Shown here one piece after another: positions 7,792-53,701 of a stretch of DNA of 64,000 nucleotides. Source of the DNA: Halofilum ochraceum (GTDB taxonomy: Bacteria > Pseudomonadota > Gammaproteobacteria > XJ16 > Halofilaceae); NCBI RefSeq assembly GCF_001614315.2, contig NZ_LVEG02000008.1, positions 124,001-188,000 on the forward strand, read 5' to 3'. Below the pieces are notes generated by a model that had not been told where the DNA came from, ran no database searches, and worked only from the letters and a program-made list of their open reading frames with translations. The translations under genes and the position numbers were made by a program. Within the stretch, counting starts at the first letter, position 1. Each line of letters begins with the position of its first letter.

Positions 7792-7827
7792 TCGGCCAGG
7801 CCCCTGGCCTTCGGCCGACACCGTACG

Positions 7828-9141: not shown

Positions 9142-9274
9142 GGTCAATAGAATACCCGCGGTTGCGCTGGTCGGCGGGCGCGGCCGTTCCGATTCCCGCA
9201 CCTCGCGGATTCCCGCACTGGCGTGTTTCCCTTGCAATCATCGACCCACTCTCGCTTTACGGGAGCAGTAAATA

Positions 9275-19292: not shown

Positions 19293-20879
19293 ATGGAATC
19301 GGCTTTCCTCATGCTCATTGCGCCGGCGGTCCTGCTGCTGGCGGCGCGCGACGCGTTCCGCACGCCCGGCCGTCGCCCCGGCGGCTGCCTGCGTCGCGCC
19401 GAGCTCGCGGCGCTGGTCGCGCTTGCCGCGGCCGCCGTCGCGGTCGGGCTGCGGATCGGTCTGGGTACGGGCACGGCGGGGCTGCCAACGCCGTTCGGAT
19501 CGATTGCACTGGTCCGCCTCGACTGGATCAGTGTATCCATGCTGGCGCTGGTGGCCTTTGTCGGCTGGGTCGTGCTGCGCTACGCCCGCGTGTATCTCGA
19601 TGGCGAGGACGGGCAGGGTGCATTCACGGGCTGGCTGTGCCTGACGCTGGCCATGGTGCTGCTGTTGGTGCAGGCCGGGCATCTGGCGATTTTCGCCGCC
19701 GCCTGGATCGGCACGAGTCTGTGCCTGCACCACCTGCTCCTGTTTTACCCGAACCGTGCGGCGGCGGTGCGCGGTGCGCGCAAGAAGTTTGTCGTCGCAC
19801 GTGCGGGTGACGCCGCGGTACTGATCGCTTTTGCGCTGCTGATCGGGTCGTTCGGCACGGGCGACATCGCGGCATTGAACGCCGCGGCGGCCGCCGGCAC
19901 CGGGAGCATGGCGATCGTCGGCGCCGCCGGGGCGCTCGCCGTCGCGGCGCTGCTGAAGTCCGCGCAGTTCCCCACGCACGGGTGGCTCACCGAGGTCATG
20001 GAGACGCCGACGCCGGTATCCGCGCTGTTGCACGCCGGCGTGGTCAATGCCGGCGGTTTCCTGTTGATCCGCTTCGCCGACGTCATGCTGCTCGCGCCCG
20101 GGATCCTGGCCGTGCTGGTGATGATCGGCGGGTTCACGGCGTTGTTCGCGTGCCTGGTCATGCTGGCACAGCCCGCGGTGAAGACCTCGCTGGCCTGGTC
20201 CACGATCGGTCAGATGGGGTTCATGATCCTGCAGTGCGGCCTCGCCCTGTTCCCGCTGGCGCTGCTGCACATCCTCGCTCACTCGCTGTACAAGGCGCAC
20301 GCCTTCCTCGCCTCGGGCGGCGCCGTGGAGCGCGTCGCCGCCATTCACCGGCCGGGCCCCGTGGCCGTGCCGAGTGGCGCCGCGGTCGGTCGGGCCTTTC
20401 TCGCCGCGCTCGCGATCTACGCGGGCGTCGGCCTGGTGTTCGGTTTCGACGACAAGTCCCCGCAGGCCATCGTCCTCGGCGGGATCCTTGTGCTGGGCGT
20501 TGCCTATCTGCTCGCACAGGGCCTGGCGGATGCCGCGCCGCGCGCCCTGACGCGACGCACGGCGCTGTACTCGGTGGCTGCCGCGGTCGCCTACTTCGCG
20601 TTGCAGACCGGCGTGACGCAGCTCACCGCGCCCACGCTGCCGCCGACACCGGCGCCGGGCCCGCTCGAGTGGTTCCTGATGGTGCTGACCGTCGTCAGCT
20701 TCGGTGCGGTCGCCGTGGCCCAGGCCATGTTCCCGCTCTGGTCGCACCACCCGGCCGCGGCGGGTCTGCGGGTGCATCTGGCGAATGGTCTCTATGCCAA
20801 CGCGGTCTTCGATCGCCTCCTCGGTGGCTGGTCCACCCGAACGGTTTCCGCAGCGCGGGAGGTCAACAGTGATCGATAA
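19293..20879 (+). CDS. dabB: DabB, proton-translocating membrane subunit of the DIC-accumulating complex
   Basis: 528 residues, about 13 hydrophobic helices, of the NADH-quinone oxidoreductase NuoL/MrpA-like family (Proton_antipo_M). The conserved channel segment [30 protein letters not shown] and the helix with [20 protein letters not shown] carry the Lys, His and Glu residues of such subunits. Paired with a DUF2309 protein it forms DAB, a cation-gradient-powered system that converts CO2 to bicarbonate in the cytosol. The downstream dabA start codon lies inside its last codons. Confidence 0.92.
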
Positions 20880-23292
20880 TCCGCAGCACCCCGCCACGGC
20901 CCCCAGAGAGGTCGTCACCGCGGTCGAGTCGGCCGTGCGCGCGATCCCGCCGGCCTGGCCGCTGTCGGCGACGGTGGCCGTCAATCCATTCCTCGGGCAG
21001 ACGGAGGAGCCGCTGTGGCAGGCACAGGCGCGCTTGCGCCGAGTCGGCGGGAGTCGGGCGACGCCGTCGCGTGACTGGTATGAGGAACGCATCGAGAGCG
21101 GCCGGATCACCGATGCCGATCTGGCGGCTGCGCTCGAGGCGTCGCCGGCGTCGCTGCGCCCGCGTGATGTGGCGGCCCTGAAGGCGGCGGCGGCCACGCC
21201 GGCGGCGCAACCGGTAGCGGTCGCGACCGTGGCGGAGCTTGCGCAGTCGGTCTCGGGCATCGATTGGCCGGGCCTGATCGAAGAGCGGATCGGTGCGTGG
21301 GCGGCCTCCCATTTCGATGAGGGCCAGGCGCTGTGGGTCGCGCCCGCGCATCGAGGCGTGTACGACGCCTGGCGCTGGCACGCTACCCACGATCTGACGC
21401 CCGAGATCCAGGGGCTGCGCGGGTTTGCCCGGCACGTGGCCGATGCGCCGGACACCGCCGATCGTGCGATCGCGCGTGCCGTCGACCGGCTGGGATTGTC
21501 GCCGGATGCACTCGAAACGGCCTTCCACCGGCTGCTGATGACGCTCGGTGGCTGGTCACAGTACGGGCGTTGGCGGCTCTGGCAGGCCGAGTTGCGCGGT
21601 CAGGAGGACGTCACCGCCGCGGAGCTGCTGGCCGTCCGCCTGGTCTGGGAGGAGGCACTGTTCCAGCAGTACGGCGATGCACTGCGCGCCGCCTGGACCG
21701 AGAGCGTCGAGCGTCACGCCGCGCCAGTCGAGGCCGATGCGGATGACGTGATCGATGCCATCCTGCAGGACGCGGCCGAGCGCGCCGAGCAGCGCTCGCT
21801 GGCGGCAGCGCTCGGTGGCGGGGCGGCCGCCGAAACGGACGAACGGCCGGTGCTGCAGGCGGCGTTCTGCATCGATGTCCGCTCCGAAGTCTTTCGCCGG
21901 GCGCTCGAGTCGATCGACGAACGGATCCGCACGCTCGGATTCGCCGGTTTCTTCGGTGTGGCGACCGCGCACCGACGCTTCGCTTCCGACGTCGAGGAGC
22001 CGCGGTTGCCGGTACTGCTCAATCCGGCCGTGCACAGCTGCGCGACCCCGGATCATAAGGTCGATGCGGACCGGCGTTCGCGCATCCTCGCACGGGCGCG
22101 GCGGGCGTGGGGCCGCTTCAAGCTGGCCGCCGTGTCGTCGTTCGCGTTCGTCGAGGCGATGGGCCCGGTCTATGCAGGCAAGCTGGTCCGCGACACGCTT
22201 GGCATGCCGGCGCACCGCCATCGGCACGACCCGGCGCCACGGTTTACGCCGGAACTCGACGACCAGGCCCGGGTGGATGCGGCGGAGCGCGTGCTGCGGG
22301 CGATGTCGCTGACGAGCGGTTTCGCGCGCGTGGTGGTCGTCGCCGGCCACGGTGCCGACGTCGTCAACAACCCCCATGCGAGCGCACTGCAATGCGGCGC
22401 CTGCGGCGGTTATTCGGGCGAGGTCAATGCGCGGCTGCTGGCGGGGCTGCTGAACGACCCGATGGTGCGTGCGGGGATTGCCGAACGCGGTATCACGATC
22501 CCGGAAGATACCCTGTTCGTGGGCGCACTGCACGATACGACCACGGATACCGTCGATCTCTTCGACGCTGACGTCGACACGCACGGGCACGGCGATGACC
22601 TCGCCCGTGTGCGCCGATGGCTCGCTTCGGCGGGCGCCGTCGCACGCGGGGAGCGGATGCTGCGACTGCCGCGCGGCGACGATGGCGGTGTACCACGGCA
22701 CCGGGCGCGGGACTGGTCCGAGATCCGGCCTGAGTGGGGCCTGGCGGGCTGTAATGCGTTCGTCGCGGCGCCGCGGCACCGCACGGCTGGCCGCCAGCTC
22801 GAGGGCAGGGCATTCCTGCACGACTACGACTGGCGCCAGGATGACGGCTATGGCGTGCTGGAACTGATTCTGACCGCGCCCGTGGTCGTGGCCAGCTGGA
22901 TCAGCCTGCAGTACTACGGCTCGACCGTGGTTCCGGAGCACTTCGGCGGCGGCAACAAACTGCTGCACAACGTCACCGGCGGCATCGGCGTTGTCGAGGG
23001 CAACGGCGGCCTGCTGCGCACCGGTCTGCCATGGCAGTCGGTGCACGATGGGGAACGACTGGTCCATGAGCCGTTGCGCCTGACCGTGTGTGTCGAGGCA
23101 CCGACGGATGCCATCGAAGACATTCTGGCACGCCACGAGGGGGTACGACGCCTGTTCGACAACGGCTGGCTCCACCTTTTCGCGCTCGACGAGGAGGGCC
23201 GCATGGCCTGGCGTTATGCAGGCGGACTCCGTTGGCTGCCGGGCACGGAAGTCCGGACGGACGAATTCGCGGCAGGCGGAGCGGCGCACTAG
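20869..23292 (+). CDS. dabA: DabA (DUF2309), zinc-dependent CO2-hydrating subunit
   Basis: 807-residue soluble partner of DabB. The putative carbonic-anhydrase-like zinc site is intact: Cys334 and Asp336 in FCIDVRSE, His494 in [10 protein letters not shown] and Cys509 in LQCGACGG. The order and the 15-residue His-Cys spacing match Halothiobacillus DabA. I chose the GTG at 20869, preceded by GGGAGGTCAACA and overlapping dabB by 11 bases; this yields the expected N terminus with AVNPFLGQ. It should act on the cytosolic face of the inner membrane. Confidence 0.94.
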
Positions 23293-32195: not shown

Positions 32196-32369
32196 AGATC
32201 AGCGGCTCCCACATCCCAGTCTGGATTGCGTGCTGCAGACCTCCCCCGGGATCGAGAAACCGTCGGCGGGGCGGGGCCTGGAGCCTCGCTGACTGAATCG
32301 CCCGACCGCCGCCGAACGAACGGGCACGATGGCGACGACGATCGCCGACCATGCAACGGGGCCACGAAC

Positions 32370-32855
32370 ATGACCGCACAGACCCTGCGTCGAAGCGCCG
32401 CCCTCGTGGTCAGCCTGCTCGTGTGTTTCGCGGCGGCAGGCCTGGGCGGACTGGCGACATCGACCTCCGTCGGCGACTGGTACCCGCAGCTGAACAAGCC
32501 GGCGTTCAATCCCCCGGCATGGCTGTTCGCCCCGGTGTGGAATATCCTGTTCGCGCTCATGGCCGTCGCCGCATGGCGCATCTACGACCGGGTACCGGCC
32601 GGGGTCATCCGGCGCGCGGCGCTCACGCTGTTCGGACTGCAGCTCGTCGCCAACATCCTGTGGTCCGTCCTGTTCTTCGGGCTCCGACAGCCTGGCGGGG
32701 CGCTGATCGAGATCCTCGTGCTGGAGGCACTGATCGTCGCGACGACGATCGTATTCTGGCGGCTCGATCGGGTCGCCGGCGCACTGCTGGTGCCCTATAC
32801 GCTCTGGGTGGCATTCGCGATCGCACTCAACGGTGCGATCTGGTGGCTGAACTGA
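32370..32855 (+). CDS. tspO: TspO/MBR family membrane protein
   Basis: 161 residues, five transmembrane helices. The Trp- and Pro-rich WYPQLNKPAFNPPAWLFAPVWNILF is diagnostic of TspO, the tryptophan-rich sensory protein that binds porphyrins; the C terminus YTLWVAFAIALNGAIWWLN is also typical. Start at 32370 with ACGGGG upstream. No operon partner. Confidence 0.92.
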   Translation: MTAQTLRRSAALVVSLLVCFAAAGLGGLATSTSVGDWYPQLNKPAFNPPAWLFAPVWNILFALMAVAAWRIYDRVPAGVIRRAALTLFGLQLVANILWSVLFFGLRQPGGALIEILVLEALIVATTIVFWRLDRVAGALLVPYTLWVAFAIALNGAIWWLN

Positions 32856-33963: not shown

Positions 33964-34305
33964 ATGACGACGACAAACACGGCTGGAGCTGGTCCCGATG
34001 ATGTGCTGGAGCAGGCAGCCGCCTGGCGCGAGGCGGGGCGTGACGTCGCGCTGGCGACGGTCGTCTCGACCTGGGGCTCGGCGCCGCGTCGGCCCGGCGC
34101 GCAGTTGGCGGTCACGGCCGCCGGCGACATGGCCGGTTCGGTAAGCGGTGGCTGTATCGAGGGCGCGGTGATCGCCGAGGCGCGCGAGGTCATGGAAGAG
34201 GGTGAGCCGAAACTGCTCGAGTTCGGCGTGACCAACGACCAGGCCTGGGAGGTCGGGCTCGCCTGTGGCGGCCGGATCGAGGTGTTCGTGGAGCGCTTCG
34301 ACTGA
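33964..34305 (+). CDS. XdhC/CoxI-type protein, N-terminal half
   Basis: 113 residues covering only the XdhC_CoxI N-terminal domain: VALATVVSTWGSAPRRPGAQ and MAGSVSGGCIEGAVIAEA are the family motifs, with the conserved Cys in SGGCIEG. XdhC-type proteins bind molybdenum cofactor and help sulfurate and insert it. Here the usual single protein is split: the Rossmann half is encoded by the next gene, overlapping by one base (TGATG). It heads the operon leading to sufS, sufU and coxG. A hairpin at 33908-33936 lies in its leader. Confidence 0.85.
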   Translation: MTTTNTAGAGPDDVLEQAAAWREAGRDVALATVVSTWGSAPRRPGAQLAVTAAGDMAGSVSGGCIEGAVIAEAREVMEEGEPKLLEFGVTNDQAWEVGLACGGRIEVFVERFD

Positions 34306-34982
34306 TGGAACGCGCGATCCGTGAACAGCTCCTCGCCGACCGCGCCGCCGGTCGGCCGGTCGTGGTCGCCACGGCGCTCGACGATGGCGAGCAACGCCTG
34401 CTCCACCACGACGAAGGAACGGCGGCTTTTGCCGAGGGGGCGGCAGCGACGCTGCGCTTCGATCGCGCCGAGACCCGGGAGATCGACGGCCGGCGCTGGC
34501 TGTTCAACCCCTACAATCCGCCGCTGCGGCTCTACATCATCGGCGCCGTGCACATCGCGCAGTCGCTGGCGCCGCTCGCCGCGCACACCGAGTTCAACGT
34601 GACCGTCATCGATCCCCGGCGGACCTTCGCCACCGCCGAGCGTTTCCCCGGTGTCGCTCTGGATACGGCCTGGCCGGACGAGGCCCTGGCCACGTATACG
34701 CTCGATGGCCGGAGCGCGGTGGTGACGCTGACCCATGATCCGAAACTGGATGATCCGGCGCTGGCGGCGGCGCTCAACAGCGAGGCATTCTATATCGGCG
34801 CACTCGGCAGTCGCCGGACGCATGCCGGGCGCCGTGAGCGCCTGGCCGAGCAGGGCTTTGGTGAGGATCAGATCGACCGCATCCACGCGCCCGTCGGGTT
34901 CTCGATCGGGGCCCGCGGACCGGCGGAGATCGCCATCTCGATCCTTGCCGAGGCGATCTCCGTGCTGCGCACCGGGCAGTAA
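34305..34982 (+). CDS. XdhC-type protein, C-terminal Rossmann half
   Basis: 225 residues. LRLYIIGAVHIAQSLAPLA is the nucleotide-binding start of the XdhC Rossmann domain (PF13478 type); FYIGALGSRRTHAGRRERLAEQG and IHAPVGFSIGARGPAEIAISILAEAI complete it. Together with the preceding gene it makes one XdhC equivalent, presumably as a two-chain complex. Expected role: handling of Moco for the neighbouring molybdenum hydroxylases. Confidence 0.87.
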   Translation: MERAIREQLLADRAAGRPVVVATALDDGEQRLLHHDEGTAAFAEGAAATLRFDRAETREIDGRRWLFNPYNPPLRLYIIGAVHIAQSLAPLAAHTEFNVTVIDPRRTFATAERFPGVALDTAWPDEALATYTLDGRSAVVTLTHDPKLDDPALAAALNSEAFYIGALGSRRTHAGRRERLAEQGFGEDQIDRIHAPVGFSIGARGPAEIAISILAEAISVLRTGQ

Positions 34983-35006
34983 AAAGCCACTGCGAAGAAC
35001 GCCATC

Positions 35007-36233
35007 ATGAGCTTCGATCCGCACGCCGTCCGTGCCGACTTCCCACTCCTGCAGCGCGACCACGAGCCGGCGCTGCACTACCTGGACAACGCGGCTACGG
35101 CACAGGTCGCGGGTCCGGTGCTCGAAGCGATCCACGCTCACGAGACCACGAGTCGGGCGAATGTCCTGCGCGGTGTCCATCGCCTCGCCGAGGCGGCCAC
35201 CGACGCCTATGGCGTTGCCCGCGAGACGGTCGCCCACCACCTCAACGCCGCCGATGCCGATGAGATCGTATTCACCAGCGGCTGCACGGCCGCACTCAAC
35301 CTGGTCGCGCACGCCTTCGGCGCGACGCTGTCAGCGGGCGATGAGATCGTCATCTCGGAACTGGAGCATCACTCCAACATCGTGCCGTGGCAGATGCTGC
35401 GCGATCGCACCGGGATCCGGCTTCGCGTGATCCCGGTAACAGAAGAGGGCCGGCTGGATCTGACGGTCCTGCCCGACATCGTCGGAGCGCGGACAAGGCT
35501 GATCGCCGTGACTCATGCATCCAACGTCACGGGGGCACTGACCGAGGTCGGCCCCATTGTCGATGCGGCCCGGGCCGTCGGCGCGCGGGTGCTGCTCGAC
35601 GGTGCCCAGCAGGTGCCCCACGCGCGGGTGGATGTGCAGGCGCTCGGTGTCGATTTCTACTGTTTCTCGGGGCACAAGGTCTTTGGCCCCAACGGCATCG
35701 GCGTCCTCTGGGGGCGGGGCGAACTGCTCGCCGATCTGCCGCCGTTCCTCGGCGGTGGCGAGATGATCCGCCGCGTCAGGCTGGCGGAGACGACCTGGGC
35801 ACCGCCGCCGCAACGGTTCGAAGCGGGCACGCCGCCCATCGCCCAGGCGGTCGGCCTGGGCGCGGCGCTGCGCTGGCTCGGGGAACACGACCTCGACGCC
35901 GTCGGCCGTCACCTCCAGGCGTTGACCCGACGACTGATCGAGGGCCTGAACACGCTCGGCGAGGAACGTGTGCGCGTCCTCGGTCCCGGCGCCGGGGAAC
36001 CGCGCGGACCGCTGGTCGCCTTCGATGTCCCGGGGGCGCACCCGCACGACATCGCGCAGCTGCTCGACGCCCATGGCGTTGCGGTCCGGGGCGGCCACCA
36101 TTGCGCCCAGCCGCTGATGGACGCCTTCGATCTGGCCGGTACAACTCGCGCCAGCCTGGCGCTCTATAATGATTCGGCCGATGTCGACGCCTGTCTGGAG
36201 GCGCTGGAGACGGCGTTACGGAAACTGCTATGA
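35007..36233 (+). CDS. sufS: SufS-type cysteine desulfurase in the Mo-hydroxylase cluster
   Basis: 408-residue class V PLP aminotransferase of the SufS/CsdA group. The PLP Lys lies in DFYCFSGHKVFGPNGIGVLW and the catalytic Cys in AVRGGHHCAQPLMDAF; ELEHHSNIVPWQML is also typical. It releases sulfur from cysteine as persulfide. Between xdhC genes and sufU/coxG, and far from any suf operon here, it likely provides the terminal sulfur of the Mo centre; in Rhodobacter a NifS-like desulfurase partners with XdhC for this purpose. Overlaps sufU by ATGA. Confidence 0.9.
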   Translation: MSFDPHAVRADFPLLQRDHEPALHYLDNAATAQVAGPVLEAIHAHETTSRANVLRGVHRLAEAATDAYGVARETVAHHLNAADADEIVFTSGCTAALNLVAHAFGATLSAGDEIVISELEHHSNIVPWQMLRDRTGIRLRVIPVTEEGRLDLTVLPDIVGARTRLIAVTHASNVTGALTEVGPIVDAARAVGARVLLDGAQQVPHARVDVQALGVDFYCFSGHKVFGPNGIGVLWGRGELLADLPPFLGGGEMIRRVRLAETTWAPPPQRFEAGTPPIAQAVGLGAALRWLGEHDLDAVGRHLQALTRRLIEGLNTLGEERVRVLGPGAGEPRGPLVAFDVPGAHPHDIAQLLDAHGVAVRGGHHCAQPLMDAFDLAGTTRASLALYNDSADVDACLEALETALRKLL

Positions 36234-36679
36234 GCACGGATCTCTACCAGGAGCGCTTACTCGCGCTCGCCGCCGCGGACCACGACCCGGGTCGGCTCGA
36301 CGCGCCGGATGTCACGCTGACCCGGGATAACCCGCTGTGCGGTGACCGGGTGACGCTCGATCTGCATTGCGACCGGGCGGGACGTATCGCTGGGCTGGGT
36401 CACCATGTCCGTGGCTGCGTCCTCTGTCGCGCGGCCGCGAACCTGCTGGGTCAGCAGGCGATCGGCCAGGACGCCGCTTCGCTGGACACGCTGCACGGCG
36501 CCATCCGGGATGCGCTGCGCGGGCGGCATGCCTGGCCGACGGACGCGCCCTGGCAGGACCTGGTGCTGTTCCAGCCGGCCGCGGCGCACAAGAGCCGCCA
36601 TGAGTGTGTCCTGTTGCCGTTCGAGGCCGTCTTGGAGGCGCTGCGTCAACACGGCGAAGACGCTGCCACGGGGACGTGA
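36230..36679 (+). CDS. sufU: SufU/IscU-like sulfur-transfer or scaffold protein
   Basis: 149 residues. NPLCGDRVTLDL, HVRGCVLCRAAANLLG and SRHECVLLPFEAVLEAL give the three-Cys SufU pattern. SufU activates SufS by accepting persulfide sulfur through a zinc site. Translationally coupled to sufS. In this context it probably relays sulfur to the Mo cofactor rather than building Fe-S clusters, although the cox operons also need [2Fe-2S] clusters. Confidence 0.82.
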   Translation: MSTDLYQERLLALAAADHDPGRLDAPDVTLTRDNPLCGDRVTLDLHCDRAGRIAGLGHHVRGCVLCRAAANLLGQQAIGQDAASLDTLHGAIRDALRGRHAWPTDAPWQDLVLFQPAAAHKSRHECVLLPFEAVLEALRQHGEDAATGT

Positions 36680-36767
36680 TCGGCGACGTCTGGTAGTTTA
36701 TCGATCACGATGTTTCGTGCGTGGGGCACGATTGCCCCCGGTGGAATAACGAACAGGCGGGCTACCT

Positions 36768-37352
36768 ATGGAATTGCAACAGGAACGCCATGTGCCGCTG
36801 CCCCGGGAAACCGTCTGGGAGGCACTCAACGATCCCGACGTCCTGAAGGCCTGTATCCCGGGCTGCGAGTCATTCGAGCGGGTCGACGACGGCGCCTATG
36901 AGGCCGCGGTCAAGGCGAAAGTCGGTCCGGTCAATGCGCGCTTCAAGGGCAACGTGACGCTCACCGACCTCAACCCCCCGACATCCTACTCGATGAGTTT
37001 CAAAGGACAGGGCGGCCAGGCCGGCTTCGTCAAGGGTTCGGCCGACGTCACGCTGACGGAGACCGATGGGGGTTGCACGGTCGGCTACACGGCCAAGGCG
37101 CAACTCGGCGGCAAGCTGGCTCAGCTCGGCAGCCGGTTGGTCGACGGCGCAGCGCGCAAGACGGCCAACGAGTTCTTCGACAACTTCGTCGAGTATATGG
37201 GTGGCAGCGGCGAGGAAGAGGAAGAGGCAAACGCGGGCGCAGCGGCCGCTGAAACCGGCGAGGGCCCCGGCAACGCACCCGCCAGGATCTGGACCTGGGC
37301 GGCGGTGGGCGCCGGGGTCGTGGTGATTGTCCTCGCCTTCGCGCTGCTGTGA
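36768..37352 (+). CDS. coxG: CoxG-like SRPBCC protein with C-terminal membrane anchor
   Basis: 194 residues. The SRPBCC fold occupies about 1-148 (VPLPRETVWEALNDPDVLKACIPGC, VKAKVGPVNARFKGNVTLTD, GGKLAQLGSRLVDGAARK). An acidic, Ala-rich linker follows, then a transmembrane helix IWTWAAVGAGVVVIVLAFAL at the end. CoxG proteins recruit CO dehydrogenase to the membrane and are reported to carry quinone in mycobacteria. It is 88 bases after sufU and ahead of coxS of the form II-type operon. Confidence 0.87.
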   Translation: MELQQERHVPLPRETVWEALNDPDVLKACIPGCESFERVDDGAYEAAVKAKVGPVNARFKGNVTLTDLNPPTSYSMSFKGQGGQAGFVKGSADVTLTETDGGCTVGYTAKAQLGGKLAQLGSRLVDGAARKTANEFFDNFVEYMGGSGEEEEEANAGAAAAETGEGPGNAPARIWTWAAVGAGVVVIVLAFALL

Positions 37353-37517: not shown

Positions 37518-37599
37518 CGGTAGCGGAAAAGCCCTTCTGTAGGCAGCTGGACACCGCTGCCAAAAGGGATACCAGGGACACAACAAGAGGGTGCTGGTT

Positions 37600-38067
37600 A
37601 TGAACGTGTCGATGACCGTCAATGGCCGCTCGGTAACCGCCGATGTCGATCCTCCTACCCTGCTCACCGATTTCCTGCGCGACCATCTCGGCCTCACCGG
37701 CACCCATGTCGGCTGCGACACGGGGCAGTGTGGCGCGTGCACCGTCCACCTCGATGGCCGCGCCGTAAAGGCCTGCTCGGTACTCGCCGCGCAGGCCGAA
37801 AGCGCCGACGTGGTCACCATCGAGGGGTTGTCCGACGGTGACGGCGAACTCCACCCGATGCAGGCGGCCTTCCGCCAGGAACACGGTCTCCAATGCGGTT
37901 TCTGCACGCCAGGCATGGTGATGGCGGCGATCGACCTGGTGAAGACGTATCCGAACGCCTCCGATGCGACCATTCGCGAGAATCTCGAAGGCAATATCTG
38001 CCGCTGCACCGGTTATGAAAATATCGTCCGCGCGGTGAAGTCCGGCGCAGCGGGCATGGGGGGTTAG
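37600..38067 (+). CDS. coxS: Form II-type CO dehydrogenase family small (Fe-S) subunit
   Basis: 155 residues with two [2Fe-2S] clusters: plant-type [21 protein letters not shown] and the helical domain CGFCTPGM ... CRCTGY. It passes electrons from the Mo centre to FAD on CoxM. The ATG at 37600 has AGAGGG upstream; a GTG at 37591 is an alternative. Order coxS-coxL-coxM is that of form II clusters. Confidence 0.93.
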
Positions 38068-38071
38068 AGCG

Positions 38072-40459
38072 ATGGGTGAACCGACAGCGAAGATCGGCGG
38101 CTCGACCAGGCGCTCCGAGGACAAGCGCTTCCTCACCGGTCACGGCCGCTATACCGACGACATCAACATGGCGGGCCAGACGTACGCCTGCTTCGTCCGC
38201 TCCCCGCACGCCCACGCCCGTATCAATTCGATCGACAGCAGCATGGCCCGCGACGCCGAGGGGGTCATCGCCGTGTTCACGGGCGAGGACCTGGCCAACG
38301 ACGGTGTCGGCGGCTTGCCCTGCGGCTGGCAGATCCACGACGTCAGCGGCGAGCCGATGGCCGAACCACCGCACCCGCTGCTGGCGCAGGGCAAGGTGCG
38401 CTATGTCGGCGACCATGTCGCCGTCGTCATTGCCGAGACGAAGCAGCAGGCGCGGGACGCCGCCGAACTGGTGGACGTCGATTACGAGATGCTGGATGCG
38501 GTGGTTTCGCCGGCGAAGGCACTGGAGGCGGGTCAGCCGCTGGTCCACGACGAGGTTCCGGATAACCGCTGCTACACCTGGGAGCTGGGCGACAGCGGGG
38601 CGGCCGACGAGGCCTTCAGGAACGCCCATCACGTCACCAGCCTCGACCTGGTCAACAACCGGCTGATCCCCAACGCGCTGGAGCCCCGCGCGGCCCTGGC
38701 CTGCTACTCCCCGGGCGAGGATCACTACACGCTGTATACCACGTCGCAGAACCCGCACCTGGCGCGGCTGCTGCTGTCCGCGTTCGTGCTCAACCTCCCC
38801 GAACACAAGGTCCGCGTCGTGTCGCCGGATGTCGGCGGCGGGTTCGGCTCGAAGATCTACCCGTACCCGGAAGAGGCGACGCTGACCTGGGCGTCGAAGA
38901 AGATCGGCCGGCCGATCAAGTGGACCGCCGAGCGCGTCGAGTCGTTCCTGAGCGACGCCCACGGGCGCGACCACGTCACCCACGCCGAGATGGCGCTGGA
39001 TGCCGACGGCCGATTCATCGGCATGCGCGTCGACACCAAGGCCAATCTGGGCGCTTATCTGTCCACCTTCGCCTCGGCCGTGCCGACCATCCTGTACGCC
39101 ACGCTGCTCGCGGGGCAGTACACCACGCCGGCGATCCACGCGCGGGTGACCGCGGTGTTCACGCACACTTCGCCGGTCGATGCCTATCGCGGGGCGGGCC
39201 GGCCGGAGGCGACCTATGTGGTCGAGCGCCTGGTGAGCCAGGCCGCCCGTGATACGGGGCTGTCCCAGGGCGAGATCCGGCGGCGCAACTTTATCCCGAC
39301 CGATGCCTTCCCCTACCAGACACCGGTCGCGCTCAACTACGATGTCGGCGACTACAACGCCACCCTGACGCGGGCCGAAGAGCTGGCTGACGTCGCCGGC
39401 TTCGAGAGCCGCCGCGAGGAGGCGCAGAAGCGCGGCAAGTACCGAGGCATCGGCTACTCGACCTACATCGAGGCCTGTGGCCTGGCGCCGTCGAACATCG
39501 CCGGCGCGCTGGGTGCCCGGGCCGGGCTCTACGAGGCCGGCGAGGTCCGGCTGCACCCGACCGGCAAGGTGACCGTATTCACCGGCTCGCACAGCCACGG
39601 CCAGGGCCACGAGACCACGTTCGCCCAGATCGTCTCGGATCGCCTGGGCATCCCGTTCGACGACGTCGACGTGGTCCACGGCGATACCGACCGTAGCGCC
39701 TTCGGCATGGGGACTTACGGCTCGCGCTCGCTGGCCGTGGGCGGCTCGGCCATCGTCAAGGCGATGGACAAGATCATCGACAAGAGCCGCAAGATCGCCG
39801 CCCACATGCTCGAGGCGGCCGAGGCCGACATCGAGTACGACGGCGGCACCTTCCGCGTTGCCGGCACCGACAAGAGCCTGTCGATGGCGGAGGTCGCGTT
39901 CTCCGCCTACGTGCCGCACAACTATCCGCTCGAGCAGCTCGAGCCGGGGCTCGACGAGAGCGCCTTCTACGACCCGACCAACTTCACCTATCCGGCCGGC
40001 AGTCACATCTGCGAGGTCGAGGTGGACGCCGATACGGGCCGGGTCGAGATCGTCAATTTCACCGCGGTCGATGACTTCGGCAACGTCATCAACCCGATGA
40101 TCGTCGAGGGCCAGGTCCATGGCGGGCTGGCCCAGGGCATCGGCCAGGCCCTGCTCGAGGGCGCGGTCTACGATGCGGAGAGCGGCCAGCTCATCACCGG
40201 CACCTACATGGACTACACCATGCCGCGCGCCGACGACCTGCCGAGCTTCAGGGTCGATACCTGCAATACGCCCTGCACGCACAACCCGCTCGGTGTGAAG
40301 GGCTGCGGCGAGGCCGGCGCCATCGGTTCGCCGCCGGCGGTCATCGACGCCATCATCGATGCGCTGCGCCCGCTCGGCGTAACCGATCTGGAGATGCCGG
40401 CGACACCGGTCCGTGTCTGGCAGGCGATCCAGGACGCCCAGGGTCGGCAGGTGGCCTGA
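38072..40459 (+). CDS. coxL: Form II-type CO dehydrogenase family large (molybdenum) subunit
   Basis: 795-residue xanthine-oxidase-family subunit binding Mo-molybdopterin cytosine dinucleotide. The N-terminal half has RSPHAHARI and the [17 protein letters not shown] region. The active-site loop reads [11 protein letters not shown] (residues 371-381), the form II signature lacking the Cys that holds copper in true CO dehydrogenase. The C terminus has the Glu-bearing [20 protein letters not shown]. Substrate is uncertain: form II enzymes may be aldehyde or other hydroxylases. Confidence 0.93.
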
Positions 40460-40472
40460 GGAGGAGCGATCC

Positions 40473-41267
40473 ATGTATGCATTCGGTTATCACCGCCCGA
40501 CGACCATCGACGAAGCGGTCAAGCTGCTGGGGCAGTCCGAGGATGCCAGCGCCATCGCCGGCGGTCAGACGCTGCTGCAGAGCCTCAAGCAGCGCCTTGC
40601 GCAGCCTGCCGATCTGATCGATCTGGGCGCCATCAAGGAGCTGTCGGGTATCACCGTCGACGGTAAGACGGTCGTCATCGGCGCGCTCACCAGGCACAAC
40701 GAGGTCGCCTTGTCGCCCGAGGTCCAGAAGGCGATCCCGGCGCTGGCCGATCTGGCCGGCGCCATCGGCGATCACCAGGTGCGCAATGTCGGCACCATCG
40801 GCGGATCGGTCGCCAACAGCGATCCGGCCGCCGACTACCCGGCGGCCGTGCTCGGCCTCGGCGCGACGATCGAGACCAACCAGCGCCGGATCGCCGCCGA
40901 CGACTTCTTCATCGATCTGTTCGAAACGGCACTGGAGCCGGGGGAACTGATCAAGGCGATCCACTTCCCGGGGCCGAAGCGGGCGGCCTACGTGAAGTTC
41001 CCGCAGCCGGCGTCGCGTTACGCCCTGGTCGGCGTGATGGTGGCCGAGACCGGCGACGGCGTGCGCGTTGCCGTCACTGGCGCCGGCGCCTGTGCCTTCC
41101 GGGTGCCGGCGATGGAACAGGCGCTGGCCGGGGACTTCTCCGCGGACGCGATCAAGGGCGTGCAGGTGGACGCGGACGAACTCAACGATGACATCCACGG
41201 CACGCCCGCATACCGCGCGCACCTGGTGAACGTCCTCGCCCGACGCGCGGTGGAAGCGGCCCGGTAG
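40473..41267 (+). CDS. coxM: Form II-type CO dehydrogenase family medium (FAD) subunit
   Basis: 264-residue FAD protein of the CoxM/CutM family. FAD-binding segments AGGQTLLQSLKQRLAQPADL and VGTIGGSVANSDPAADYPAA are intact; the C-terminal CO_deh_flav_C domain follows. ATG at 40473 with GAGGAG upstream, 13 bases after coxL. Electrons leave the enzyme from this subunit. Confidence 0.92.
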   Translation: MYAFGYHRPTTIDEAVKLLGQSEDASAIAGGQTLLQSLKQRLAQPADLIDLGAIKELSGITVDGKTVVIGALTRHNEVALSPEVQKAIPALADLAGAIGDHQVRNVGTIGGSVANSDPAADYPAAVLGLGATIETNQRRIAADDFFIDLFETALEPGELIKAIHFPGPKRAAYVKFPQPASRYALVGVMVAETGDGVRVAVTGAGACAFRVPAMEQALAGDFSADAIKGVQVDADELNDDIHGTPAYRAHLVNVLARRAVEAAR

Positions 41268-41357
41268 CTGCGCGCGGCTGCGCAGCCGTGCCCAGCCCGC
41301 AGTACGGAAAGGTCCCGCGGATGGGCGCAACGCGCATAGGGCGATTGAGCCTTGCCC

Positions 41358-41396
41358 CTCTCCGCGCTCTGCGTGCTCTGCGCCTCTGCGAGAAAC
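41358..41396. repeat. CTCTGCG-repeat intergenic element
   Basis: CTCTCCGCG is followed by three copies of CTCTGCG (41367, 41376, 41384) in the 218-base gap between coxM and coxD. The sequence resembles the dispersed CTCTGCGxCTCTGCG motif seen between genes in many environmental bacteria; origin unknown. Confidence 0.4.
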
Positions 41397-41485
41397 GAAC
41401 TCCGGCGTGTCTGACATCCGCGTTCGCAGGATTGTTGTTAGCCACGCGTTCACCCGATCCGCCACCCTGCTGAAACGGCCATGCC

Positions 41486-42424
41486 ATGAATGATGAAACG
41501 GTGCGCACGGAATTGCCCGAGTCCATCGACGCCACGGTCGACCTGCTGAACTCGGGCGCGTACGTCGCCGACCGCCGCCTCGCCACGGCGCTTTTCCTCA
41601 GCCTGCGCATGGGGCGACCGCTGTTCCTCGAGGGCGAGGCCGGTGTCGGCAAGACCGAGATCGCCAAGGTCGCCGCGCGCACCCTCGGCCGGCCGCTCGT
41701 GCGGCTGCAGTGCTACGAGGGCCTCGATATCACGGCGGCGGTCTACGAGTGGAACTACCAGCGGCAAATGGTCGAGATCCGTCTGGCCGAGGCCAGCGGC
41801 GAGGTGGACCGCGAACGCCTCGGCCGGGACATCTTCGATCGCCGCTTCCTGACCAAACGCGCGCTCTTGCAGGCACTGGAGCCGGAGGACGGGGTCGCAC
41901 CGGTCCTGCTGATCGACGAGCTCGACCGCACCGACGAGCCCTTCGAGGCCTATCTGCTCGAAGTCCTGTCCGACTTCCAGGTGACCATCCCCGAGATCGG
42001 CACGATCGTCGCCCGTGAGCCGCCCATCGTGGTGGTCACCTCCAACCGCACGCGCGAGATCCACGACGCGGTCAAACGCCGCTGCCTCTACCACTGGGTG
42101 GACTACCCGGACGCCGAGCGCGAGCTGGAGATCCTCCGATTGAAAGCGCCGGACGCACCGGCCGAACTGAGTCGTCAGGTGGTCGCCTTCGTCCAGGAGC
42201 TGCGCCAGATGGATCTCTACAAACTGCCAGGCATCGCCGAGACGATCGATTGGACCAACGCGCTGATCGCCGTTGACAGCCTGTCGCTGGATCCCGCCGT
42301 CATCAACGACACGCTCGGTGCGCTGCTCAAGTACCAGGACGACATCGCCCGGTTCGACTCGCAGCAGGTCAACGACCTGCTGCAGCGCATCAACGCGGGT
42401 GTCGCCGCGAGCAGCAATGCCTGA
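41486..42424 (+). CDS. coxD: CoxD-type MoxR AAA+ ATPase, first copy
   Basis: 312-residue MoxR ATPase. Walker A GEAGVGKTEIAK, Walker B PVLLIDELDRTDEPFEAYLLE, sensor SNRTREIHDAVKRRCLYHW. In Oligotropha CoxD is needed to mature the Mo-Cu cluster, working with the vWA protein CoxE as a chaperone pair. It follows coxM after a 218-base gap and overlaps coxE. Confidence 0.9.
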   Translation: MNDETVRTELPESIDATVDLLNSGAYVADRRLATALFLSLRMGRPLFLEGEAGVGKTEIAKVAARTLGRPLVRLQCYEGLDITAAVYEWNYQRQMVEIRLAEASGEVDRERLGRDIFDRRFLTKRALLQALEPEDGVAPVLLIDELDRTDEPFEAYLLEVLSDFQVTIPEIGTIVAREPPIVVVTSNRTREIHDAVKRRCLYHWVDYPDAERELEILRLKAPDAPAELSRQVVAFVQELRQMDLYKLPGIAETIDWTNALIAVDSLSLDPAVINDTLGALLKYQDDIARFDSQQVNDLLQRINAGVAASSNA

Positions 42425-43622
42425 CGACTACACCGGCGCGGGCGGTGGGCGGCTCGCGGAGAATGTCATGCACTTCGCCCGGGTCCTGCGCACCGCCGGG
42501 CTGCCGATCGGCCCGGACAAGGTGGTCGATGCCCTGCGCGCCCTCCAGGTCGCCGGCGTGCGCCGGCGGGACGACTTCTACTGGACGCTGCACGCCGTGT
42601 TCGTCGACCGGCGCGAGCAGCGCCACCTGTTCGACCAGGCCTTCCAGGTGTTCTGGCGCGATCCCCAGCTGCTCGATCGCATGCTGCAGCTGTTGCTGCC
42701 CCAGGCGGGCGGCAACGCACCCGAGCCGGAGCCGCCGCCCGCGCGCCTGGCCGAGGCGCTCGCCGCCGGTCAGGCGCCGCCCGCAGCGGAAGAGGACGAG
42801 GAAGACGAGACCGAGGTCGAGGCGAGTCTGACCTGGTCGGCCGAGGAGCGGCTGCAGACCGTGGACTTCGAGTCGATGACGGCGGCGGAGCAGGCCGATG
42901 CGCGACGCGCCATCGCGCGCCTGAAGATGCCGGTCAAGCCGCTGGCCACGCGACGGACCCGGCCCGATCCGCGCGGCCGTCAGCCCGACCTGCGGGCCAC
43001 GATGCGCCAGTCGCTGCGCCAGGGCGGGGCGACGATCGATCTGCGCCACCGTGCGCGGGTCCAGCGCACGCCGCCGCTGGTCGTGCTCTGCGACATCTCG
43101 GGGTCGATGGCCCAGTATTCGCGGATGTTCCTCCATTTCCTGCACGCCGTGACCAACGATCGGGATCGCGTCCACGCGTTCGTCTTCGGCACCCGGCTGA
43201 CGAATATCACTCGCCACCTGCGCGTCCGCGATGTCGATGAGGCCCTTGAACGCACGGGGCGCGTGGTGACCGACTGGGCGGGCGGAACACGCATCGGCGC
43301 CTGTCTGCACGAGTTCAACTTCCGCTGGGCCCGGCGGCTGCTCGGCCAGGGCGCCACCGTGCTGCTGGTCACCGACGGCCTTGATCGCGAGGCGGGCGAG
43401 GGCGTCGCCGAGGAGATGGCCCGCCTGCAGCGTTCGGCCCGGCGGCTGATCTGGCTCAACCCGCTGCTGCGCTGGTCGGGCTTCGAGGCGAAGGCCGGTG
43501 GCGCGCGCGCCATGCTGCCCTGGGTCGACGAATTTCGCCCCGTGCACAACATCCGCAGCCTGGTGGAACTGGCCGATGCCCTGGGCGGGCAGGCGCGCGC
43601 GCCCAGGCGGCAGACCGCATGA
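42417..43622 (+). CDS. coxE: CoxE-type vWA domain protein, first copy
   Basis: 401 residues. A helical N-terminal region with an acidic low-complexity stretch (around 120-140) precedes a von Willebrand A domain with the MIDAS motif CDISGSMAQYS and the later TDGLDREAGEG. It partners CoxD. The ATG at 42417 overlaps the coxD stop, and its own stop overlaps mocA (ATGA). Confidence 0.9.
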   Translation: MPDDYTGAGGGRLAENVMHFARVLRTAGLPIGPDKVVDALRALQVAGVRRRDDFYWTLHAVFVDRREQRHLFDQAFQVFWRDPQLLDRMLQLLLPQAGGNAPEPEPPPARLAEALAAGQAPPAAEEDEEDETEVEASLTWSAEERLQTVDFESMTAAEQADARRAIARLKMPVKPLATRRTRPDPRGRQPDLRATMRQSLRQGGATIDLRHRARVQRTPPLVVLCDISGSMAQYSRMFLHFLHAVTNDRDRVHAFVFGTRLTNITRHLRVRDVDEALERTGRVVTDWAGGTRIGACLHEFNFRWARRLLGQGATVLLVTDGLDREAGEGVAEEMARLQRSARRLIWLNPLLRWSGFEAKAGGARAMLPWVDEFRPVHNIRSLVELADALGGQARAPRRQTA

Positions 43623-44197
43623 TCACCGGGGTGCTGTTGGCGGCGGGCCGGGGCGACCGTTTCGGCGGCGACAAGCTGAGCGCGCGCCTGCCCGACGGGC
43701 GCCCGATCGCCGCGGCGGCCGCCGAGGCGATGGTCGCATCGCTGCCGCGCGTGGTGGCGGTGACGCGGCCGGATGACGAAGCGCTCGCCGCCGTTCTGGA
43801 AGGCGCTGGCTGCCATGTCGTGGTCTGCGAGCGGGCGGACGAAGGGATGGGGGCGAGCCTGGCCTGCGGCGTGACCGCCACCCGTGCGGCCACCGGCTGG
43901 GTGATCGCGCTGGCCGATATGCCCGCGATCCGGCCCGCGACCATCGCGGCGATCGCGGCCACCTTGGCCGGCGGCGCGCGCCTGGCGGCGCCGACGTACC
44001 ATGGCCGGCGCGGCCACCCGGTCGGCTTCGCGGGCCATTTCGGCCCCGAACTGGCCGCCCTCGGCGGCGATGAGGGCGCCCGCCATATCCTTGCCGGCCA
44101 CCAGGCGGATCTCGAGTTCGTCGAGGTCGAGGACCCCGGCATACTGTACGACATCGATACGCCCACAGACCTCGCGCGCTCCGCGGACGATCCGTGA
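43619..44197 (+). CDS. mocA: MocA-like molybdopterin cytidylyltransferase
   Basis: 192-residue NTP-transferase: LLAAGRGDRFGGDKL binds the nucleotide, and ALADMPAIRPATIAAI and PTYHGRRGHPVGFAGHFGPEL are typical of MocA. It converts Mo-molybdopterin to the cytosine dinucleotide form that CoxL-type enzymes require. Being the only such gene visible, it could serve both CoxL proteins. It is translationally coupled to coxE. Confidence 0.87.
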   Translation: MITGVLLAAGRGDRFGGDKLSARLPDGRPIAAAAAEAMVASLPRVVAVTRPDDEALAAVLEGAGCHVVVCERADEGMGASLACGVTATRAATGWVIALADMPAIRPATIAAIAATLAGGARLAAPTYHGRRGHPVGFAGHFGPELAALGGDEGARHILAGHQADLEFVEVEDPGILYDIDTPTDLARSADDP

Positions 44198-44228
44198 CGG
44201 TATGCGCGGCGGCGACAGCAGGAACGTG

Positions 44229-45092
44229 ATGACGGTATCAGGCTTCCGGCAGCGGCACGCAATGGATGCGACCGGCTCGCTGTCCGGTGTGATCCCGTCC
44301 CGGTCCGGGGGATGTGTCCGGCGAGGACGGCGATGCCCGGCCCTGCTGGCCGTGGCGCTGGTCGCCGTCGCCTGTGCCCGCATCGGCGAGGCGCGGGCCG
44401 GGGAGGTGCTGATCGCGGTGGCGACCAACTTCGCCGAAGTGATGCCGCCGCTGGTCGAAGAATTCGAGCGCCGGAGCGGTCACGACCTGCGCTATACGAC
44501 GGGTTCGACTGGTCAGCTCTATGCCCAGATCAGCAAGCGTGCGCCGTTCGATGCCTTCCTGGCCGCGGATACCGAGCGCCCGGCTCGGCTGGTCGCCGAG
44601 AACCTGGCGGTCGCGAACAGCCGCTTCACCTATGCCCGTGGTCAACTCGTGTTGTGGAGCCGTGATCCGGGCCGTATCGGTGCCGACGGGGCTGAGACGC
44701 TGCGGGATGCGCCGCCACGGAAACTGGCGATGGCCAATCCCCGCCTCGCCCCCTATGGCGCCGCCGCCCGCGAGACCCTGGAGAATCTCGGTCTGTGGAA
44801 CGAGATCGAGCCGCGGATCGCCATGGCACAGAACGTGGGCCAGGCCTACGCAATGGTCCACATGCGCGCCGCGGAAATGGGTTTTGTCGCGCGGTCGGCC
44901 CTGGTGGCGAAAGACGGAAACCCGCCGGGCAGCCACTGGCTTGTACCCGCGACACTGCATGAGCCGATCCGCCAGGATGCCGTGCTGCTCACCCGGTCCG
45001 AGGACAACGCGGCCGCGCGCGCCTTCCTCGACTTCCTTGCCGGTCCGCATGGCCGTAGGATCATCGCCGACCACGGCTATGAGGTGGAGTAG
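44229..45092 (+). CDS. modA: Molybdate ABC transporter substrate-binding protein
   Basis: About 287 residues. Signal sequence (RRCPALLAVALVAVACARIGEARA) then the ModA fold: EVLIAVATNFAEVMPPLVEEF, TTGSTGQLYAQISKRAPFDAFLAAD and AMAQNVGQAYAMVHMRAAEMGFVA. ATG at 44229 chosen for AGGA six bases upstream; 44202 and 44262 are alternatives. Periplasmic molybdate capture; first of modABC, 31 bases after mocA. Confidence 0.92.
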   Translation: MTVSGFRQRHAMDATGSLSGVIPSRSGGCVRRGRRCPALLAVALVAVACARIGEARAGEVLIAVATNFAEVMPPLVEEFERRSGHDLRYTTGSTGQLYAQISKRAPFDAFLAADTERPARLVAENLAVANSRFTYARGQLVLWSRDPGRIGADGAETLRDAPPRKLAMANPRLAPYGAAARETLENLGLWNEIEPRIAMAQNVGQAYAMVHMRAAEMGFVARSALVAKDGNPPGSHWLVPATLHEPIRQDAVLLTRSEDNAAARAFLDFLAGPHGRRIIADHGYEVE

Positions 45093-45095
45093 CGC

Positions 45096-45773
45096 TTGAG
45101 CCTGCCCGAACTCGGTCCGCTTTGGCTGTCGCTGCAGCTCGCGGGCGTCACGACACTCATCCTGCTGCTCGGCGGAACGCCACTCGCGTGGTGGCTGGCC
45201 CACACCCGCTCGCGTGCCCGGGCGCCGATCGAGGCGGTCACGGCGCTGCCGCTGGTCCTGCCGCCCACCGTGCTCGGCTTCTATCTGCTGCTCGTGCTCA
45301 GTCCGGACTCGTTCCTCGGTGGCCTGTGGTTCAGCGTGACCGATTCGGCGCTTACTTTCTCCTTCAGCGGCCTGGTCATCGCCTCGGTCGTCTACTCGCT
45401 ACCCTTTACCGTGCAACCGCTGCAGGGCGCCTTCGAGGCACTCGGCCGGGGTCCGATGGAGGCGGCCGCCAGCCTGCGCGCGCGGCCGCTGGATGCCTTC
45501 TTTACCGTGGCCACGCCGCTGGCGCTGCGGGGCTATATCACCGCGGCCGTGCTGACCTTCGCCCACACCGTCGGCGAGTTCGGCGTGGTCCTGATGGTGG
45601 GCGGCAACATCCCCGGCGAGACGCGGGTGATATCGATCGCCATCTACGAGCACGTCGAGACGATCGACTATGCGGCGGCGCACAGCCTGTCGATCATCCT
45701 GGTGGTGTTCTCGTTCGTCGTGCTGCTCGGCGTCTATGCCTCGAACCACCGCTTCCCGGTCCGGGCGGGCTGA
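45096..45773 (+). CDS. modB: Molybdate ABC transporter permease
   Basis: 225 residues with about five helices and the permease EAA loop EAAASLRARPLDAFFTVATPLALRG. LPLVLPPTVLGFYLLL and HTVGEFGVVLMVGGNIPGETRV are ModB hallmarks. TTG start three bases after modA stop. Confidence 0.93.
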   Translation: MSLPELGPLWLSLQLAGVTTLILLLGGTPLAWWLAHTRSRARAPIEAVTALPLVLPPTVLGFYLLLVLSPDSFLGGLWFSVTDSALTFSFSGLVIASVVYSLPFTVQPLQGAFEALGRGPMEAAASLRARPLDAFFTVATPLALRGYITAAVLTFAHTVGEFGVVLMVGGNIPGETRVISIAIYEHVETIDYAAAHSLSIILVVFSFVVLLGVYASNHRFPVRAG

Positions 45774-45776
45774 CGC

Positions 45777-46913
<1,137 letters not shown>

Positions 46914-47127: not shown

Positions 47128-47997
47128 ATGATCCCCGGCCGTTTCGAGTATCACGCCGCGACCGACGTCGACGACGCCGTCCGCCTGCTGGCGGAGCACG
47201 GCGCCGACGGCAAGCTGCTGGCCGGCGGCCACAGCCTGCTGCCCATGATGAAGCTGCGCTTCGCCGAACCCGCCCACATCATCGACATCAACGGCATCGC
47301 CGACCTGCGCGGTATCCGCGAAGAGGGCGACACCCTCGTCATCGGACCGATGACCACCGAGAGCGCCATCATCGATTCCGGGCTCCTCCAGCGGCGCTGC
47401 CCGGTGCTGCCGGAAGCCGCCCGCCTGATCGCCGATCCGCAGGTGCGCAATCGCGGCACGATCGGCGGCGACGCCCTCCACGGCGACCCGGGCAACGACC
47501 ACCCCGCGGTGCTGATGGCCCTGGACGCGGAGTTCGTCATCCACGGGCGCAAGGGCGAGCGCCGCGAGCCGGTCAATGGTTTCTATGTGGGGCCCTATCT
47601 CACCGCCCTCGACGACGGCGAACTGGTGACCGCGATCCGCATCCCGACACCGGCCGCCGGCCATGGCTACGCCTACGCCAAGTTCAAACGCAAGACCGGC
47701 GATTACGCCACGGCCGCCACCTGCTGCCTGCTGGAAATGGACGGCGACACCTGCCGCCGGGTCCGACTGACGCTGACGAACGTGGGGCCGACCCCGCTGC
47801 GCGCGAGCGAAGCGGAGGACTTGCTGACCGGTGCCGAGCCGACGGCCGAGCGCATCGAGCAGGCCGCTCAGGCGGCGATGAGCATCTGCAACCCGGCCGC
47901 GGATCTGCGCGGCAGTCCCGAATACAAAACCCACATGGCCGGTGAGATGACCCGCCGGGCCATCCGCACGGCGCTTGAACGTGCCCGGGGAGGCTGA
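47128..47997 (+). CDS. coxM: CO dehydrogenase form I medium (FAD) subunit
   Basis: 289 residues. FAD motifs [20 protein letters not shown] and [20 protein letters not shown] match CoxM of Oligotropha closely and differ from the paralogue at 40473-41267. The ATG at 47128 has AAGGAGG upstream. It is first in the coxM-S-L-D-E-F order that defines form I clusters. Confidence 0.94.
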
Positions 47998-47998
47998 G

Positions 47999-48493
<495 letters not shown>

Positions 48494-48532
48494 CGCCGGC
48501 GGCCGCCCGTCATCGAATCGAGGAGTCGGGTC

Positions 48533-51639
<3,107 letters not shown>

Positions 51640-51640
<1 letters not shown>

Positions 51641-53648: not shown

Positions 53649-53701
53649 GCACTGTGTGAAGGCACGATGCCTGGATCGCGCCTTCTACGGGAGAACCGAT
53701 C

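Follow-up and report, generated by a model that had tools for sequence, protein, structure and literature searches.

Why should a cysteine desulfurase and a SufU-like protein, partners known from iron-sulfur (Fe-S) cluster assembly, be encoded between XdhC and CoxG genes beside a molybdenum enzyme? The question is raised by positions 33964-37352 of a 64,000-nucleotide stretch of the Halofilum ochraceum genome (assembly GCF_001614315.2, contig NZ_LVEG02000008.1, positions 124,001 to 188,000; hereafter the window), for which an initial annotation had suggested a private sulfur relay serving the sulfido ligand or the Mo-S-Cu bridge of molybdenum enzymes. We think it quite probable that SufS and SufU form a dedicated relay placing the sulfido ligand on the XdhC-bound molybdenum cofactor. 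Open reading frames and Pfam and NCBIfam matches bear out the annotated run of two XdhC halves, SufS, SufU and CoxG at exactly the positions given:

33964-34305, + strand: XdhC N-terminal (XdhC_CoxI) domain protein, 113 amino acids (PF02625, 102.3 bits; Pfam cut-off 24.3)
34305-34982, + strand: XdhC Rossmann-domain protein (XdhC_C), 225 amino acids (PF13478, 152.4 bits; Pfam)
35007-36233, + strand: SufS-type (type II) cysteine desulfurase of the module clade, 408 amino acids (TIGR01979, 497.8 bits; NCBIfam cut-off 475.1)
36230-36679, + strand: SufU-like zinc-type sulfurtransferase of the module clade, 149 amino acids (PF01592 NifU_N, 27.7 bits; cut-off 22)
36768-37352, + strand: CoxG (PF06240 COXG, 124.5 bits; Pfam)

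The intergenic spacings across these co-directional genes are -1, 24, -4 and 88 bp, with overlaps of 1 bp between the two xdhC genes and 4 bp between sufS and sufU. The desulfurase also matches Aminotran_5 (437.2 bits, Pfam), a C-terminal hydrophobic tail is visible in the CoxG translation, and no riboswitch or other RNA family reached its gathering score in the scanned part of the window (33-52 kb). As the initial annotation had noted, no other Fe-S assembly gene lies nearby; the housekeeping suf genes form a sufR-B-C-D-S-T operon on a different contig, in which the regulator is of Rrf2 type and sufT is a SufT-like gene, and a Rieske-like gene accompanies them (some of these names were given by eye). 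The desulfurase of that operon, SufS1, is 47.5% identical to the module SufS. A third contig encodes SufE, an IscS-like desulfurase is also present, and the module SufU is the sole NifU_N protein of the genome. Within the same genus, one genome (G155) resembles that of H. ochraceum in having the module SufU and two molybdenum hydroxylases, and another (G266) has neither.

Residues, fold and ancestry of the SufS-SufU pair

Residue numbering was fixed by PDB alignments to Bacillus subtilis SufU (C41, D43, C66, C128) and SufS (H342, C361). The residue equivalent to H342, 19 positions ahead of the catalytic cysteine, is histidine in 77/77 module SufS rows (including one duplicate, from the contig of L051 and L067) and in 12/12 SufS encoded beside housekeeping SufU, the position being held by Asn in SufS1 of the same genome and by Tyr in Escherichia coli SufS, whose partner is SufE. 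According to the available text of one study, the matching His354 of Mycobacterium tuberculosis SufS is essential, and E. coli SufE can neither activate that enzyme nor replace SufU (PMC10216065). Retention of this histidine, taken together with the M. tuberculosis data, argues that the module SufS works with a SufU.

The SufU side is similarly conserved. We take C41, D43, C66 and C128 of B. subtilis SufU to be zinc ligands, and the window SufU keeps all four positions (C37, D39, C63, C126), plus R123. The alignment of 85 SufU rows counts one contig twice (L051 = L067) and includes L052, which belongs to a different, orphan SufU-like type. C37 and C63 occur in every row, and D39 and C126 in 84 each, the exceptions matching the pattern of L052. 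Four cysteines are near invariant when the extra C66 of the window protein is counted (81/85 rows). A CxxC motif as a unique signature of the module SufU was rejected, its second cysteine occurring also in 5 of 12 housekeeping SufU rows; L055 and L056 among the 12 are near duplicates of each other. The spacing between the second and third cysteines is of the long SufU type (C63-C126, 63 residues, vs 62 in B. subtilis SufU), and the histidine that precedes the third cysteine in IscU is absent, its place being taken mostly by Glu, Asp, Gly or Arg in the 85 rows and by Glu before C126 in the window protein, which also lacks the Lys typical of SufU there. The long spacing and the missing histidine are reported to separate SufU from IscU (PMC10216065, in the portion accessible). 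The AlphaFold model of the window SufU (predicted local distance difference test score 93.8) superimposes on persulfide-bearing B. subtilis SufU (6jzw_A) with template modelling scores of 0.84/0.88 (E 5.9e-9). The pair is thus like SufS-SufU of B. subtilis and M. tuberculosis in joining a type II desulfurase to a zinc-type SufU with the same ligands, the same SufS histidine and the same predicted fold, but whereas those proteins feed SufBCD for Fe-S clusters, the module lacks SufB/D, its host genomes usually do so too, and both proteins fall in separate clades.

Module and housekeeping SufS stand on opposite sides of a single branch with 100/100 support, in a tree computed without L053 and without an IscS outgroup; an earlier SufS tree with a distant IscS outgroup gave the module group weak support (58). 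Module and housekeeping SufU are likewise separated (100/99), near-identical rows having been thinned in both trees. In the SufU tree, the orphan alphaproteobacterial SufU-like type falls on the side of the module. This type, seen in L167 (9001-9447), L168 (9001-9462), L169 (8983-9417) and L052, has lost two zinc ligands, resembles the Brucella structure 5uft and, where its neighbours were read, lies close to folE or hisI. A Microvirga plasmid carries it within a molybdenum cluster that shares the gene order of the window (sufU-coxG-coxS-coxL-coxM-coxD-coxE). The Paracoccus and Sinorhizobium plasmid matches examined proved to be of the orphan type with no adjoining molybdenum genes, and were set aside.

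A further case is locus L054 of genome G121, in which a sufU (9273-9737) without sufS ends a form I cox cluster that also encodes two XdhC-like proteins. Its product clusters with housekeeping SufU (100/99), so by ancestry the L054 gene is apparently an independent recruitment beside a form I cluster; the same genome also has a normal SUF SufU (L066). We lean, if only a little, towards a history in which a distinct SufS-SufU clade was recruited apart from SufBCD and became a dedicated persulfide carrier, protected by zinc, that serves the sulfido ligand of molybdenum hydroxylases, and in which a housekeeping SufU was recruited independently at L054.

Recurrence of the module and the iron-sulfur background of its hosts

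With the window SufU as query, 110 of 274 genomes of the class gave a match; the 16 loci fetched comprised 12 housekeeping SufU in suf operons, two copies of the module (L051, L053), the cox-cluster copy L054 and a short contig (L052). When four cox-linked SufU were used to scan a collection of species genomes (84,980 species), 458 relatives were found, of which the best 80 by SufU similarity were taken as module loci. By tblastn, these contain mobA (76), sufS (74), both xdhC halves (74), coxE (57) and coxD (50), and none of the 80 contains sufB or sufD; weak sufC-like matches of ATP-binding cassette (ABC) type appear in one locus and a weak sufR match in one. The synteny of sufS-sufU with xdhC is regular: a same-strand xdhC_C lies no more than 4.5 kb upstream of sufU in 72/72 loci with at least 4.5 kb of upstream sequence, so that an XdhC-family protein (PF02625, PF13478) is encoded with the desulfurase module in every such locus. 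Among the eight loci with a shorter upstream stretch, xdhC_C is present in two and the remaining six have less than 3 kb upstream. The gene directly upstream of sufU is sufS in 74/80 loci. Splitting of XdhC into two proteins, pointed out in the initial annotation, is correct and is the usual state of the module (70 of 74 loci split, four fused).

The usual order, coxD-coxE-xdhC_N-xdhC_C-(moeA-like+mobA)-sufS-sufU, extends over Alpha-, Beta- and Gammaproteobacteria, with hosts including Reyranella, Enhydrobacter, Thiothrix, Sulfuritalea and Rhodocyclales. In a Reyranella locus read gene by gene (L081), the module stands isolated from structural genes. The mobA domain of this locus is fused behind a domain with a weak molybdopterin-binding match (7135-8787; PF00994, 20.2 bits, below cut-off), a match that is missing from the corresponding gene of L053 (11271-12857).

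Fe-S assembly was surveyed in host genomes of 50 of the 80 loci, namely the 46 top-ranked ones together with L120, L121, L125 and L145. All 50 have a NifU_N protein, eight have SufB/D, and 42 have no SufB/D match, suggesting that the module SufS-SufU usually has no SufBCD to serve. An IscU-class match of at least 108 bits was found in 40 of these 42, including the genomes of Reyranella massiliensis and Enhydrobacter aerosaccus, the drafts G295 and G305 showing neither. In four of the eight hosts with SufB/D (G274, G290, G296, G298) the module SufU is the sole NifU_N protein. The combination that makes a SUF system for Fe-S clusters, SufB, SufC and SufD with SufS-SufU, was therefore not found for the module, there being no sufB/D in the 80 loci and none in 42 of the 50 genomes.

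Proposed relay, its targets and the rival explanations

The reading we prefer draws on gene content and order, conservation, residues, predicted fold, phylogeny and co-distribution, all of them shown by the analysis. SufS would take sulfur from cysteine as a persulfide, which SufU would accept through the ligand exchange between the SufS histidine and zinc that is known from Fe-S SUF systems; from the residues, the fold and the gene pairing, we infer this transfer from SufS to SufU. The two-part XdhC would hold the molybdenum cofactor, probably as the cytosine dinucleotide, and SufU would then hand the sulfur to that cofactor. That the recipient is XdhC-bound cofactor, not CoxD or the enzyme directly, we infer less firmly, from gene linkage and from the analogy of Rhodobacter capsulatus, whose desulfurase NifS4 is reported to sulfurate XdhC-bound cofactor before its insertion into an enzyme of the xanthine oxidase family (PMC2997495, PMC10609526; available parts). 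The proposed system is like that one in its chemistry and differs in having XdhC as two proteins and, encoded alongside, both the desulfurase and a SufU-type carrier, of which the accessible R. capsulatus text has no description. The sulfurated cofactor would be inserted into the neighbouring form II enzyme with the help of CoxD and CoxE, and a possible second recipient would be the form I CO dehydrogenase; no further molybdenum hydroxylase was found in the genome.

Both enzymes belong to complete cox sets that had gone unnoticed in the initial annotation, form II (37591-43622) and form I (47128-54544):

37591-38067, + strand: CoxS-like [2Fe-2S] subunit of the form II enzyme (PF01799, PF00111)
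38072-40459, + strand: CoxL-like molybdenum subunit, form II, with AYRGAGR (PF02738, PF20256, motif)
40473-41267, + strand: CoxM-like flavin adenine dinucleotide subunit of the form II enzyme (PF00941)
41486-42424, + strand: CoxD-like AAA+ ATPase of the form II set (PF07728; NF047784 below cut-off)
42417-43622, + strand: CoxE-like von Willebrand factor A protein of the form II set, start estimated (PF05762, 235.7 bits)
43619-44197, + strand: MobA/MocA-like nucleotidyltransferase (PF12804)
44190-46913, + strand: molybdate-type ABC transporter modA-modB-modC, modA start approximate and end at 45092 (PF13531, PF00528, PF00005, PF03459 TOBE)
47128-51640, + strand: form I CO dehydrogenase coxM-coxS-coxL, with CoxG fused to CoxL and AYRCSFR (PF00941, PF02738, PF06240, motif)
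51658-54544, + strand: second maturation set of coxD (51658-52512), coxE (52515-53645) and a fused XdhC/CoxF-like gene (53702-54544)

The CoxG domain of the form I enzyme sits at the C-terminus of CoxL, and the products of the second maturation set are 64%, 51% and 49% identical (coxD, coxE, XdhC/CoxF-like; tblastn) to their L054 homologues, with matches to PF05762, PF13478 and PF02625. PF02738 finds two molybdenum hydroxylases in the whole genome, namely these two. About 10 kb upstream of the molybdenum region lie a DabA-type inorganic carbon transporter and a proton-antiporter-type partner (19293-23292), which fits an autotroph. A TspO/MBR gene occurs near the cox genes both in the window (32226-32855) and in L054 (11320-11823, recognised by eye).

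The form II enzyme (CoxL at 38072-40459) is the likely main target. The CoxL adjacent to the module lacks the form I motif AYxCSFR and reads AYRGAGR, which we take to be the form II motif. This bears on the other half of the original suggestion, that the Mo-S-Cu bridge in form I CO dehydrogenase gets its sulfur from the relay. Such a role is made conceivable by the form I cluster that begins downstream, about 10 kb from the sufSU pair, by the sufU of housekeeping ancestry that ends the form I cluster of G121, and by the source of the bridge sulfur in Oligotropha carboxidovorans being described as unknown in the parts available of two papers (PMC4240915, PMC3471820). We nevertheless consider it unlikely, as the form I enzyme of the window has its own coxD, coxE and coxF-like gene and all coxL motifs found in module loci are form II. 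Form I CO dehydrogenase occurs in 18 of 398 genomes of a phylum sample, including our own, and neither sufU nor a module-type sufS was found in any of the other 17 clusters (0/17) within the stretches fetched, one of which (L163) spans only 3.6 kb and a few others of which are cut. The module does recall the coxDEFG genes of O. carboxidovorans, where CoxD, CoxE, CoxG and an XdhC-type protein likewise surround a CoxL-type enzyme, but that system is form I with Mo-S-Cu, and no sufS or sufU is described for it in the consulted portion of the source (PMC4240915). The private relay proposed in the initial annotation thus has the support of comparison in so far as SufS-SufU is tied to XdhC, is conserved across three proteobacterial classes and sits in hosts usually without SufBCD; the Mo-S-Cu bridge as its target does not.

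Several observations weigh against the relay. The 80 loci were chosen for SufU similarity and come mostly from metagenome-assembled genomes. In six of them (L109, L122, L128, L135, L145, L146) sufU directly follows mobA or xdhC and sufS is absent, which suggests that SufU can take sulfur from another desulfurase. Counting XdhC_N matches of at least 110 bits among the matches listed for the 398-genome sample, a module-type SufU lies within 10 kb of a split XdhC_N in only 4/66 (our own, G329, G450 and G590, which also give the only SufU matches of at least 167 bits among those listed), so the core module works without sufSU elsewhere. Among the 20 core-module loci fetched, which were not random, the three sufU-bearing ones having been picked because they were already known, G450 has sufS and sufU, G329 and G590 sufU alone, and the others neither. 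Judged from gene neighbourhoods, the sufSU pair is an optional add-on to the split-XdhC module. In L193 a module-type sufS-sufU pair (9500-11139) stands away from xdhC, though its contig does carry the genome's only molybdenum hydroxylase, at a distance of about 29 kb; its neighbours, by eye, are apparent sulfur-assimilation and metal-transport genes. The NCBIfam SufU model TIGR01994 scores 62.0 bits against a cut-off of 92.5, and the window protein is therefore filed as a divergent SufU-like clade, not as an orthologue of Fe-S SufU. To our knowledge, XdhC sulfuration as known needs no additional carrier. Finally, SufU is homologous to IscU, and M. tuberculosis SufU has, by the title of the entry, been crystallised with a [2Fe-2S] cluster (9dcl).

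This last point invites the explanation that SufS-SufU is a dedicated Fe-S assembly unit, with SufU as the scaffold for the two [2Fe-2S] clusters of CoxS-type subunits; the enzymes served are indeed [2Fe-2S] flavoproteins, and the four near-invariant cysteines of SufU could be read in the same sense. The IscU histidine is missing, however, and the long SufU-type spacing is kept, module loci lack sufB and sufD, a gene-by-gene reading of three loci by eye showed no Fe-S partners, and host genomes are already equipped with ISC or SUF. The genes constantly found beside the pair serve the cofactor (xdhC, mobA), and we regard a scaffold role as distinctly unlikely. It is very improbable that the dithiolene sulfurs of molybdopterin (MoaD/MoeB step) are what the relay feeds, in place of the terminal sulfido ligand: cysteine desulfurases are said to supply that step too (PMC8300815, accessible part), but the linkage here is to the late-stage genes xdhC, coxD, coxE and mobA, and no moaD, moaE or moeB was recognised by eye in the gene lists of these three loci. 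That SufS-SufU is the general Fe-S machinery of the cell, as its being the source of the only NifU_N protein might suggest, is scarcely credible and was rejected on account of a second complete SUF set in the genome; the initial annotation would have yielded to a genome without any other suf or isc system, and a separate sufBCD-S operon and SufE are present, an IscU-class protein without SufB/D occurs in 40 of the 50 host genomes, and the congeneric G266 does without both module SufU and molybdenum hydroxylase.

Returning to the sulfido relay on XdhC, its closest parallel besides R. capsulatus is in selenium-dependent molybdenum hydroxylase clusters, which combine an XdhC-like protein, a desulfurase/selenocysteine lyase homologue and a sulfurtransferase-related protein but need SelD, use a SirA-related carrier instead of SufU and have a desulfurase of family TIGR01977 (Haft and Self, 2008; PMC2276186, as far as its available text goes). 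The initial annotation had thought SufU new in this role, and we found no paper describing it and no publication joining SufU, XdhC and molybdenum, in a search that covered the subscription literature thinly and does not prove absence from print. Sulfuration of XdhC-bound cofactor by a desulfurase is itself known from R. capsulatus; the addition of SufU, as read from the genes, would be what is new. The CoxD literature leaves open a 'separate sulfur transferase' (PMC3471820, available part), and the relay, if real, would be that protein. The role of SufU would then extend beyond Fe-S biogenesis, and a conserved operon that names both desulfurase and carrier would make the sulfur source of CoxD-dependent molybdenum hydroxylases testable.

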